64,000 nt of DNA from Flavobacterium sp. N502540 (lineage in GTDB: Bacteria; Bacteroidota; Bacteroidia; Flavobacteriales; Flavobacteriaceae), in NCBI RefSeq assembly GCF_025947365.1, contig NZ_CP110012.1, positions 682,001-746,000 on the forward strand, read 5' to 3'. Shown one piece after another: positions 4,346 through 9,182 of the stretch. The number at the start of each line of letters is the position of its first letter. Position 1 is the stretch's first letter. Both the position numbers and the translations under genes were made by a program. The notes beneath the pieces were generated by a model. It saw only the letters and a program-made list of their open reading frames with translations, had not been told where the DNA came from and did not search any database.

Positions 4346-4990
4346 TTAAAGTTAAGTCATACTAAGAACTAATCAATTTCCTTTAATAATCGCTAAACTT
4401 GTTATGCTAGTCGCAAAAACAAAGTCAGATTGGATTAGAAGCTTCGCTATAAAGCTTTTATTTGTCATGTACTTATCAGAGTTGTATGTTTTCTTTAATT
4501 TATTGTGATTGCTTGGAGAGCTTAAAGAAATACTTGGGAAGGATAAATATCTAAAATTGCCTGAGATAAAGTATTATCAATGCTAGTTATTCAGAATAAT
4601 TTTAAGTCCTTTATGAGAGATTATCTTTACTGGAATAAGGTTAATCGATTGATTATAGCTTTTTTGCAAAGTTAATCGCGTAGATAATAGGTTGTGTTTC
4701 TATTGTAATTACTGGTTGTAATTGCAAAATATATAGTTTAAGTGTTTGTTTTTTTAGGTAAATATGGAATCATTCGTTTGAGATAAAGTTTATGAAACAG
4801 TATGGATTTATTTCCAATATGCTAGAGAAAAGCAGATTCAACAGGTGGTTGCATAAGGTTACATAAAACTAGGTATAGAATTGTTTGAGATTGAAAGTCC
4901 TTGTATCTGTCAGATATTACAATATCATGACCAGATATTACAATATTACACCGATTATTTAAAACGGTGAAAAATTTAAAAATTAATGTG
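4346..4990. other. Long AT-rich gene-free region upstream of the peptide island
   Basis: About 650 bases without a convincing gene, unusually long for this compact segment. A 34-codon ORF at 4404 (with a hydrophobic stretch) has no support. Visible structure is limited to the 15-bp direct repeats at 4911-4946 and a small inverted repeat CACCG/CGGTG at 4948-4968 just upstream of a -7 box. The length and composition suggest regulatory DNA or the scar of an insertion. Confidence 0.4.
4911..4946 (+). promoter_or_regulatory. Tandem 15-bp direct repeats, probable activator operator
   Basis: CAGATATTACAATAT occurs at 4911-4925 and again, identical, at 4932-4946. The repeat period is 21 bp, two helical turns, so a dimer would contact the same face of DNA. 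The repeats end about 45 bases before the -7 box at 4992. Paired direct repeats with a period near 21 bp upstream of peptide genes are typical of LytTR-type response regulators. Which regulator binds here is unknown. Confidence 0.55.
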
Positions 4991-4991
4991 T

Positions 4992-4999
4992 TAGATTTG
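4992..4999 (+). promoter_or_regulatory. -7 box of the peptide operon
   Basis: TAGATTTG matches TAnnTTTG, 44 bases before the first peptide start. No clear TTG lies about 19-21 bases upstream, so the promoter may need an activator, which fits the direct repeats upstream. Confidence 0.5.
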
Positions 5000-5043
5000 G
5001 CAAATAAATCAGAATAATAGTGTTAATTAAAATAATAAGAAAC

Positions 5044-5175
5044 ATGAAAACAGAAAAAGAAAAAAAGTTATTAGAAAAATTTAAGATTGAAGAACTGGAA
5101 AGAAGATTTGAATTTAGTTCTTGGAACAATTTTTCAAAGAACATGGGAAAATCATCACCAGGTAGTAGTCACTGA
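5044..5175 (+). CDS. Putative precursor peptide 1 (43 aa)
   Basis: 43 residues, highly charged at the N-terminus. Residues 6-27 match residues 4-25 of the second peptide, with 15 of 22 positions identical and the rest conservative: EKK-hydrophobic pair-EKF-x-hydrophobic-EELE-basic-R-aromatic-EF-S/A-SW. After the shared Trp27 the tail (NNFSKNMGKSSPGSSH) is unrelated to the other peptide. A conserved leader and variable tail in tandem copies next to modification-type enzymes is typical of ribosomally made, modified peptides. There is no double-Gly site and no Cys. The start ATG 5044 lies 45 bases after the -7 box. Its reality as a gene is inferred from the conservation between copies. Confidence 0.65.
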   Translation: MKTEKEKKLLEKFKIEELERRFEFSSWNNFSKNMGKSSPGSSH

Positions 5176-5242
5176 TTTATTTTAAATCAAGTATAAGAGT
5201 AGGTACACTAAATATAATTTTTAACATTAAAAACTGTATAAA

Positions 5243-5356
5243 ATGGAAACAGAAAAAAAAATAATCGAAAAATTTCAAGTAGAAGAATTGGAGAAAAGAT
5301 ATGAATTTGCTAGTTGGACAAGTAATAAAAGTAGGAAATATGATCCCTTGTTCTGA
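5243..5356 (+). CDS. Putative precursor peptide 2 (37 aa)
   Basis: 37 residues and the tandem paralogue of the 43-residue peptide 67 bases upstream. The leader is METEKKIIEKFQVEELEKRY, followed by EFASW (Trp25), and the tail TSNKSRKYDPLF differs completely from the first peptide. Conservation stops exactly at the Trp, so Trp may be the modification site or the first core residue. A dibasic KR lies five residues before Trp. A strong hairpin follows, and then the enzyme genes on the same strand. Confidence 0.65.
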   Translation: METEKKIIEKFQVEELEKRYEFASWTSNKSRKYDPLF

Positions 5357-7361: not shown

Positions 7362-8532
7362 AGATATAACATTTAATCCCATAGGTAAAAGTGATTTTTT
7401 TATCCATGAGGAGAAATACAATCATCGAATAAAAATCTCTCATGACCTGTACAATTTCATACAATTAATTGACAATCGAAAAGAGCTAGAAATTATCGTG
7501 TCCGAATACAATCTAAAGTACAATTCGTGTATTACCACTGATTTTGCTTACGATTTTTTATATCATAAATTGGCTCTATTTGGAATTATAGAAGATGCTG
7601 CTGTCACTGTAAAATCCAATTTAACACCCGATTATTTGAAGTTAAGTTTTATAATAATAAATAAAAAAACGGTTGCAAAATTAACATCTTTTCTAAGAAT
7701 TTTATTCTTTCCAAGTGTTCTCTGGAGTATGTCTATGTTATCCGTTTTAGTTTTACTTACTTGTTTTGTCACGTTAAATGAAGAGATTTTTCAAACAAGC
7801 ATTACAAGAAATGAATGGACCTTTTTTATTTTATTAAGTTTCATTGGTGTAACATTTCATGAGTTTGGACACGCCGCTGCAGCGCATTACTATGGCGCTA
7901 ATCATGGCGGTATTGGAGGAGGGTTTTATTTGTTTATGCCCGTTTATTTTGCAGATGTTACCGATATATGGAAGCTTCCTAAAAAGGAAAGGATTATAGT
8001 TAATTTGGCGGGGATTTATTTTGAGTTTATATATGCTGCTTTTTTAGTCTTTATCGGGTTATTGCTGAATAACCAGCATTTAATTATTCTAGCTTGCGTT
8101 TTTTCTGCTTTATCGCTTTATAACCTATATCCTTTTGCCAGAAGCGATGGATATTGGGTTTTATCAGATGCTATTGAACTACCCAATTTGATGTTTCATT
8201 CAACATTAAAAGTAAAACAAGTTTTTAATTCTAAAGCAGATTGGAAAGCTAAAGATTATTTTTTACTCGTTTATGGGTTATTTAATTACAGCACGCTTTT
8301 GTACTTCTTTTATTTTATCGTTATAAAAGACCCTTATTCCATTTTATATTTCCCACAAAACTTTATAAGATTAATTAAAGATATAGTATTTGAAAACTCC
8401 AAGCTTTCATTTATTGATTTTAGCAGATTGTTTATTCCAATGTTGTTCTTTTGTTTATTGTTTAGATTTTTAAAAAAAGCACTTCCCTTTTTGCATAGAA
8501 AAATCAGAAAGCGTTTGTTTTCGTTTTCTTGA
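7342..8532 (+). CDS. M50-type membrane metalloprotease with PqqD-like N-terminal domain
   Basis: 396 residues. Residues 1-85 resemble a PqqD/RRE leader-binding domain (short beta strands, then a helix with LxxFIQLIDNRKELEIIV and a final FLYHKLALFGII). The rest is a multi-pass membrane protein with zinc motif HEFGH (173-177) and the second-metal-site motif NLYPFARSDG (Asp269), as in site-2 proteases and the M50 proteins of modified-peptide clusters. It probably cleaves or exports the modified peptide at the membrane. Overlap with the preceding gene indicates one transcript. No transporter is found in the island, so this protein may be central to release. Confidence 0.75.
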   Translation: MIPVLSKDITFNPIGKSDFFIHEEKYNHRIKISHDLYNFIQLIDNRKELEIIVSEYNLKYNSCITTDFAYDFLYHKLALFGIIEDAAVTVKSNLTPDYLKLSFIIINKKTVAKLTSFLRILFFPSVLWSMSMLSVLVLLTCFVTLNEEIFQTSITRNEWTFFILLSFIGVTFHEFGHAAAAHYYGANHGGIGGGFYLFMPVYFADVTDIWKLPKKERIIVNLAGIYFEFIYAAFLVFIGLLLNNQHLIILACVFSALSLYNLYPFARSDGYWVLSDAIELPNLMFHSTLKVKQVFNSKADWKAKDYFLLVYGLFNYSTLLYFFYFIVIKDPYSILYFPQNFIRLIKDIVFENSKLSFIDFSRLFIPMLFFCLLFRFLKKALPFLHRKIRKRLFSFS

Positions 8533-8612
8533 GAACTGTGGTAGTGTTTTATATTATTACGCCGCTATTAATTGGAGTTGCTGCATTTAATTTACTTAGA
8601 CATTGGATGTAG
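8529..8612 (+). CDS. Possible 27-residue membrane micro-protein
   Basis: A TTG start overlaps the protease stop codon (TTGA), giving a 27-residue peptide with a hydrophobic centre (VVVFYIITPLLIGVAAF) and the end RHWM. The overlap suggests translational coupling. Support is limited to position and hydrophobicity; it may be chance. Confidence 0.25.
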   Translation: MRTVVVFYIITPLLIGVAAFNLLRHWM

Positions 8613-8715
8613 TAAGGGTAAAGGGAATCGAAGTCAAAGTTAAGGTGTAATTTACAACTTGTACTTATTTTAACAGATCTCCTAACTAAACATTGTCCCA
8701 TAATCACTATCATAC

Positions 8716-8746
8716 AGAAAACACTATGATACTGACTATGTTTTCT
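8716..8746 (+). other. Small inverted repeat
   Basis: AGAAAACA (8716-8723) pairs with TGTTTTCT (8739-8746). It lies between the protease gene and the two-helix membrane ORF and could be a weak terminator. A T7 run follows a few bases later. Confidence 0.3.
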
Positions 8747-8819
8747 TAAACTGTATTTTTTTGAAAGAAAAAAAGATACTAATTATAAAAATTAGCTATG
8801 AAAAATAATACCCGGTTAA

Positions 8820-9182
8820 GTGTTTTTAAAAAAAACATGGGAAATTTTAAACTTAAAAAACCTCAATATTGAATATTCCGAATTTAAAAAAACACTTCAT
8901 TTAAATTTAAATTTAAATTCAATTGTAAAAAAAATCCTTATCATAAGTTTAATCATTTTTAACTTAAATTACCTTGTCTATGCCTATTTACTTTTAGAAA
9001 ATAAATCTTTGTACGAACATTTTCCATGTCAAAATCATTTAGGAAGCAATCAATTTCTTTTTTATAGTATTCTAATTTTCTTTCTTTCCCTACTTACCTA
9101 TATCATATGGTTAATATATAAATCGCTATATGTCAAATTGATCCAAAAACTAGAACAAAACTTTAATGTGCTAAACAATTAA
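8820..9182 (+). CDS. Small two-helix membrane protein, possible immunity or accessory protein
   Basis: 120 residues from GTG 8820: a basic, Asn/Leu-rich N-terminus, then two membrane segments at about residues 38-58 and 78-100. No family is recognised. An ATG at 8798 starts a 24-codon frame (MKNNTRLSVFKK...) that would join this ORF if the A8 run at 8828-8835 were one base shorter (VFKK-TWEI). So either the start is GTG or this gene also carries a homopolymer indel. The place at the end of the peptide island would suit an immunity protein, but nothing in the sequence proves it. Confidence 0.45.
   Translation: MFLKKTWEILNLKNLNIEYSEFKKTLHLNLNLNSIVKKILIISLIIFNLNYLVYAYLLLENKSLYEHFPCQNHLGSNQFLFYSILIFFLSLLTYIIWLIYKSLYVKLIQKLEQNFNVLNN

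Follow-up and report, generated by a model that had tools for sequence, protein, structure and literature searches.

The 64,000-nucleotide window analysed here (Flavobacterium sp. N502540, contig NZ_CP110012.1, positions 682,001 to 746,000, forward strand) contains a small locus that encodes two precursor peptides, a terpene enzyme whose gene is split by a frameshift in this copy, and an M50 membrane protease. We propose, with a probability of about 0.82, that the intact form of the enzyme is predicted to prenylate the single tryptophan (Trp) of the peptide core and likely to cyclise the attached chain, the M50 protease then cutting off the leader. A prenylated Trp peptide bearing a cyclised terpene had been suggested in a preliminary description of this DNA, and the suggestion is supported by homology, by gene co-occurrence, by the position of the Trp, by structure models and by the report on the ChrPC system discussed at the end. 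Characteristic of the gene set are a conserved leader, a Trp at a near-fixed position and a membrane protease of its own; predicted precursors are numerous (760 database proteins, E ≤ 10).

The locus is an AT-rich island (GC 28% vs 35% for the whole window), which holds two tandem peptides, a 21-bp hairpin, the terpene-enzyme gene in two frames and the M50 protease gene:

5044..5175, plus strand: precursor peptide 1, 43 residues, core from about S-S-W after the leader E-F; E = 3e-7 with a leader profile lacking the Trp, built from 12 leaders that include both of the window
5243..5356, plus strand: precursor peptide 2, 37 residues, core from about A-S-W after the leader E-F; E = 1.5e-10 with the same profile
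5412..5457, plus strand: 21-bp hairpin closed by a 4-nt loop, downstream of precursor 2 and ahead of the enzyme gene
5473..6549, plus strand: open reading frame (ORF) with a trans-prenyl-synthase-like P domain (first Asp-rich motif, FARM, DDLID; second, SARM, NDDVKDLKED), continued by the beginning of the cyclase domain and ended early by the frameshift
6512..6521, plus strand: T5A5 tract, where the reading frame moves by -1 relative to uninterrupted homologs (compared with protein P0006)
6525..7361, plus strand: rest of the class II terpene-cyclase (C) domain, with EDADST and three QW-like repeats
7342..8532, plus strand: M50 (site-2-type) intramembrane protease with an N-terminal RRE/PqqD-like domain; NCBIfam daptide_HExxH 2e-32, below the curated cut-off

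Precursor peptides and co-occurrence of the gene set

The two tandem peptides of 43 and 37 residues, described earlier as having a common leader that ends in Trp and divergent sequences behind it, were confirmed: both carry EKFxxEELExRxEFxSW and differ afterwards. At the level of sequence, the general form of the precursor leader is FxVEELExRxE[FML] with a Trp soon after, in genes that stand beside those of the enzyme and the protease. A single-sequence database search with peptide 1 matched only the peptide itself, and profiles were therefore needed. Run on 46 sequences, namely the window and 45 loci (some of which represent the same genome twice), the leader-only profile, from which the Trp is left out, recovered such peptides in 39; among the 36 loci L012-L047 it did so in 30. 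The match to the leader is thus, as judged from sequence, beyond chance.

Among the 49 distinct cores recovered with this profile, the first Trp is found at core residues 2-6 in 46, and the Trp share of the other core residues is 1.5% (17/1154). A second profile, which includes the Trp, was run against the protein database and yielded the 760 proteins; of the best 120, 118 fit the leader expression; their cores are all distinct, the Trp stands second or third, and elsewhere in the core the Trp share is 0.4%. The Trp position in this set is biased by the Trp-containing profile, whereas the figure from the 49 cores is not. The two proteins outside the leader expression both have Trp as core residue 2 by eye. 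In locus L072 (genome G566), six tandem precursors, each with the leader, one Trp and a differing core, lie directly upstream of one enzyme gene.

The loci L012-L047 come from a scan of species genomes, and the gene set was found in many genera of Bacteroidota and in Balneolaceae. The leader peptide is present in 32 of the 36 loci, 30 by the leader-only profile and two (L029, L045) by motif; two of the loci without it (L027, L033) lie on contigs that start at or just before the enzyme gene. The M50 gene is likewise present in 32 of the 36, the remaining four contigs ending at or soon after the enzyme gene. Of 299 Flavobacterium genomes, 12 have the peptide; the 8 in which the enzyme was detected, that of the window included, all belong to these 12. 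When 395 genomes were sampled evenly across the phylum, 10 had the enzyme, 9 the peptide and 8 both, the window's again included (Fisher p = 2.9e-14). The gene set is more than a chance association, and the prospect raised beforehand, that many homologous loci might lack a small Trp peptide, was not borne out either in the 36 loci or in the phylum sample, where 8 of 10 enzyme genomes have it.

Nature of the P and C domains

With PF00348, the family of canonical trans-isoprenyl diphosphate synthases (IDS), the P domain reaches 15.5 bits, below the Pfam gathering score of 27, which two other genes of the same genome exceed. The prenyl half of the P0006 model resembles trans-prenyl synthases, and the P domain weakly matches in sequence 8hdl, a 'trans-prenyltransferase'; Ord1 is not named among the structure matches listed. 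The DDxxD of the SARM is invariant in 20 aligned sequences, as is Q181 upstream of it in alignment A1, and passages of a 2026 review link a Gln upstream of the SARM to Trp recognition (PMC13290415).

The cyclase piece matches Pfam SQHop_cyclase_C at 5.3e-9, above the cut-off, and MstE among the PDB sequences at 2.6e-10. MstE is also the best structural match of the modelled cyclase half, and both features looked for in a class II terpene cyclase were found, an alpha-alpha toroid over the whole C domain and the D-x-D acid motif.

A free hopanoid-, carotenoid- or drimane-like terpenoid, with small peptides that are unrelated or regulatory, was considered as an alternative product: the superfamilies of the two domains typically yield small-molecule terpenes, and the cyclase piece has a match to the NCBIfam squalene cyclase subfamily (1.7e-8). 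The scores, however, lie far under the cut-offs (33.6 vs 322.7 bits for the squalene cyclase subfamily; for hopene_cyclase 28.5 vs 431.1 bits with the cyclase piece alone and 27.9 with the unsplit F. poyangense protein). The genes are moreover tightly linked to leader peptides and to an RRE-bearing protease, and the Trp is near-fixed. We consider a free terpenoid product highly improbable, and a standard hopanoid or carotenoid enzyme, the placement that the preliminary description had named as fatal to its proposal, was rejected on the scores and on the linkage to peptides.

A less improbable alternative, to which we still give only a small chance, is that the Trp is prenylated while the C domain acts as a peptide- or prenyl-binding scaffold without cyclisation, the product being a linear, ComX-like prenyl peptide. 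It is favoured by P-domain proteins of 280-283 residues (P0040, P0043, P0044, P0045, P0049, P0052, P0054), which end at the same point after the P domain and have no cyclase, and by L032 and L038, in which a P-domain gene is followed directly by the M50 gene with no cyclase match. From their sequences, the short proteins likely perform Trp prenylation without ring closure. Where a C domain is present, on the other hand, every stretch listed carries the D-x-D acid motif (DxDS or DxDD), and MstE, which shares this kind of motif, is a cyclase according to the structure titles.

Frameshift in the window copy

The earlier account of a prenyl synthase-cyclase gene holds for the Asp motifs, the DADST and the QW-like repeats, but not for a single gene: one QW-like repeat lies in ORF 5473-6549, and three more, with the DADST, in the overlapping frame 6525-7361. 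Single-protein relatives of 619-627 residues account for 34 of 85 database proteins (the window's own counted in the 85), in a search that admits none longer than about 627 residues. The F. poyangense homologue P0006 (locus L012) is uninterrupted, at 625 residues. In the comparison with F. poyangense, pN/pS was 0.32 for the P part and 0.39 for the M50 gene; the stretch immediately ahead of the shift gave 0.36 and the part behind it 0.33. Constraint on the enzyme gene thus lasted until recently, and since the values are alike on both sides of the shift, the frameshift is either a recent loss or a sequencing or assembly error. A programmed -1 frameshift was judged less likely than a mutation or a sequencing error, the tract having by eye no canonical tandem slippery heptamer and many homologs being uninterrupted.

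The window's enzyme copy may, on its sequence, be inactive, and the locus could then be a dead remnant whose peptides are no longer matured, which would be compatible with the proposed function of the family. Other loci show decay as well: in F. foetidum (L013) an in-frame stop, at codon 296, interrupts the enzyme gene between its P and C domains, and in L068 (genome G284) the peptide and a PF13715-type upstream gene are kept while the enzyme and the protease are reduced to scraps. With pN/pS similar ahead of the shift, behind it and for the M50 protease, any loss would be recent, and the homopolymer tract may just as well hold a sequencing error; we regard a dead remnant as a serious possibility, somewhat short of even odds.

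The M50 protease

An M50 protease with a PqqD-like N-terminal domain had been described, and both parts of that assignment stood, from the motifs (HEFGH, NLYPFARSDG) and from a modelled RRE-type fold. The protein model (pLDDT 88.1) matches RREs and S2P/RseP/SpoIVFB, and its N-domain has the three-strand, three-helix order of RRE/PqqD domains. The scores against known peptide-maturation proteases are lower than their curated cut-offs, with 112.8 of 300 bits for the daptide M50 protease NF041824 and 75.1 of 225 bits (7e-21) for the YydH/LiaK M50 family.

Proposed mechanism and points against it

In the mechanism that we propose, the RRE-like N-domain of the protease would be the docking site of the leader, which may also bind the enzyme. 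By homology and by analogy with the ChrPC report, the first Asp motif of the P domain would hold a prenyl diphosphate and the second would receive the Trp indole, so that a C10-C20 chain would alkylate the Trp. The acidic D-x-D of the C domain would, given the MstE-like fold and the motif, protonate the far end of the chain and thereby start ring closure. The lipidated peptide would sit in the membrane, where the M50 protease would cleave near the end of the leader, leaving a short peptide that starts near the modified Trp. This product may serve as a signal or as an antimicrobial; a signal or toxin had been suggested in the preliminary description.

Several observations weigh against this reading. 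No peptide was found in L046 and L047, nor at G519, one of the enzyme-only genomes of the phylum sample, within the 1.5 kb flanks examined; in the other, G347, a leader-like ORF with a Trp core was seen by eye. Conversely, the peptide occurs without a detected enzyme in G617 (phylum sample) and in G172, G186, G270 and G284 (genus), where G284 has a deletion, G270 a scrap with a stop, G172 a TraB-like neighbour that is kept and G186 another system. The first Trp comes later in 3 of the 49 cores, as residue 7 of one core and, in L010 and L044, as the antepenultimate residue. Canonical prenyl synthases presumably also have a Gln near the position of Q181, which would make this residue non-discriminating, and the Gln before the SARM was dropped as a marker of Trp enzymes as probably uninformative. 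The evidence for ring closure consists of fold and motif, P-domain relatives without a cyclase exist, so that cyclisation is not universal, and the window's own enzyme gene is frameshifted.

Two cyclase types behind one prenyltransferase

Across the loci, the C-domain motif is either DxDS, as in the window, or DxDD, and the two types are distantly related (27% identity over 179 residues, E = 6e-10, L029 vs L045). In a tree of 31 C domains, each motif type forms one clade (100/100, with an unsettled bootstrap and with several long branches, the C domain of L029 among them). In the tree of 36 P domains, which also has long branches, the motif types interleave, at least three DxDD label changes being forced by well-supported branches. 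Holding the DxDD sequences together on the P tree changed the log-likelihood by -170, and a single clade was rejected (approximately unbiased (AU) test, p = 5.5e-14, 31 sequences, with the long branches L010 and L024 and three sequences without a cyclase motif omitted, and with the constrained group named after the motifs were seen). The trees leave out sequences whose enzyme is identical to another (L004, L005, L007, L008, L009, L011, L040, L041), L003, which repeats the window, the nearly identical L042 (99.4% over the C domain), P0006 (the same as L012) and L006, which is not a duplicate. The enzyme ORFs of L043 and L047 are too short to be included, and C domains of fewer than 200 residues were omitted from the C tree.

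The clearest pair is L029 and L045, both from Balneolaceae, in which the P domains are 60% identical over 300 residues, the M50 proteases 59% and the PF13715-type proteins 51%, and the leaders are near-identical, with C domains from opposite clades. Since different cyclase types are interleaved behind the same P domain, these data suggest module exchange, and the apparently exchangeable cyclase half is the most interesting new point. We hold it at even odds that evolution repeatedly swapped whole cyclase modules (MstE-like DxDS, squalene-hopene-like DxDD, sometimes none) on an otherwise constant chassis made up of the leader, the Trp prenyltransferase and the RRE-bearing M50 protease, with one relative having a weakly acyltransferase-like gene beside a Trp-less peptide. 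If true, this would be a natural combinatorial system that puts a variety of polycyclic terpenes on peptides, and engineering could take it as a template; with an exchangeable cyclase half, terpene scaffold swapping on peptides becomes directly testable. In a literature search that lacked the full ChrPC report, so that absence from print is not established, nothing other than the review PMC13290415 turned up that dealt with this family in Bacteroidota, with its leader or with the exchange of cyclases.

The relative with the Trp-less peptide is L071 (8996-11522, genome G186), where a related leader, SVEELQxRNEFTA, is encoded beside a daptide-like M50 protease and a gene whose product is weakly similar to lipid A lauroyl acyltransferases (3e-7, a score far under the cut-off); judging from these similarities, acylation perhaps replaces prenylation on the same leader and protease chassis.

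Neighbouring genes and further observations

The hairpin at 5412..5457 has a predicted RNA fold of -31.3 kcal/mol (z = -9.2, 0 of 200 shuffles equally good) and does not appear in the output of the terminator scan. It would possibly act as an attenuator or RNA end that keeps the precursor level above that of the enzyme. Stem-loops between the last peptide and the next gene were also seen in L012, L013, L016 and L017, there with no shuffle control, and none was clear in L015; in L013 and L016 the gene 3' of the stem-loop is not the enzyme. A sigma-70 scan gave 24 sites vs 26.4 in shuffles, hence no excess.

The island lies between two neighbours:

3166-4299: left neighbour, whose product combines beta-propeller-like repeats with a type IX sorting domain
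9234-12089, minus strand: long ORF, right neighbour, which we take to be the carbamoyl-phosphate synthase large chain

A small ORF after the M50 gene (8820-9182), hydrophobic by eye, gave no Pfam match at E ≤ 1 and has no counterpart in the related loci searched; it is possibly an accessory gene, possibly unrelated.

In six loci (L004, L006, L011, L016, L020, L030), a protein of 280-420 residues with CarbopepD_reg_2 (PF13715; two of the six below the cut-off) is encoded upstream of the enzyme; no gene of this type is clustered beside the window locus. Because a relative survives with the peptide in L068 after loss of the enzyme and protease, a role in self-protection or surface binding would fit this predicted protein. 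In L019 (by Pfam) and in L032 and L069 (by similarity), a TraB/PrgY/GumN family gene and a small protein gene stand beside the peptide where other loci have the PF13715 gene. A gene weakly like HTTM (PF05090, 4e-5, below the cut-off) lies between two PF13715-type genes in the F. undicola locus (L016:3852-5288).

In Candidatus Symbiothrix, genes for an isopentenyl diphosphate (IPP) isomerase and a protein-kinase-like protein lie upstream of the precursors (L031:514-2268, families assigned by search; L036:121-1825, by similarity only). IPP isomerase supplies prenyl donors, and its gene is directly upstream of the L031 peptides, with a homologue in L036. Radical SAM/SPASM peptide maturases are encoded near the enzyme gene at L022:11198-12547, L024:6575-7903 and L045:3895-5520, with TIGR04463 as best match, below the cut-off (4e-59 in L024); the cores beside them are Gly/Cys-rich in L024 and contain Cys in L022 and L045, so double modification of these peptides is possible. 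Genes for histidine kinases and response regulators near the clusters at L012:2948-4532 (with a LuxR-type output domain) and L037:3602-6339 are reminiscent of pheromone sensing, and are too few for a conclusion.

Comparison with known systems

The preliminary description knew of no system with this gene combination, a claim that does not hold, as the ChrPC kind was reported in 2024; Hubrich et al. 2024, to judge by the title, reportedly described peptides with a polycyclic terpene on Trp. ComQ/ComX of Bacillus and PalQ/PalX of Paenibacillus resemble the present system in that a Trp prenyltransferase of the isoprenoid-synthase superfamily acts on a short ribosomal peptide; the passages on ComQ and PalQ mention no cyclase domain. 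According to the passage on it, ComQ has the FARM and lacks the SARM (PMC10853753), whereas the window enzyme has both DDLID and NDDVKDLKED, and by this trait it falls outside the ComQ family (IPR033965). In the review's passage, PalQ acts on a terminal Trp and is inactive with C-terminal extensions (PMC13290415), whereas the Trp of the window peptides is internal. MstE has the same fold across the C domain and an aligned D-A-D motif; it differs as a stand-alone monodomain protein, whose solved complexes, by their titles, hold prenylated dihydroxybenzoates and not peptides. The daptide and YydH/LiaK systems share the M50 core and the peptide-maturation setting, whereas the scores below the curated cut-offs place the window protease outside those equivalogs. 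NctPC is described in the review passages as a prenyltransferase-cyclase fusion that acts on Trp, with an ABBA-fold P domain and an MstE-like C domain (PMC13290415); the fusion, the Trp and the C domain are shared, whereas the P domain of NctPC is an ABBA barrel and that of the window models as a trans-prenyl-synthase fold.

The closest likeness is to ChrPC, in which, as the same passages have it, a trans-IDS-like P domain modifies an internal Trp of a peptide with C10-C20 donors and the C domain then cyclises the prenyl group (PMC13290415). The homologs of the window enzyme combine a trans-IDS-like P domain and a cyclase domain in one protein (the 34 of 85 mentioned above), the halves being in different frames in the window, and precursors with an internal Trp are encoded alongside. 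The two enzymes are likened here by architecture and setting and not by sequence, and by this analogy the system of the window would belong with the ChrPC-type kind.

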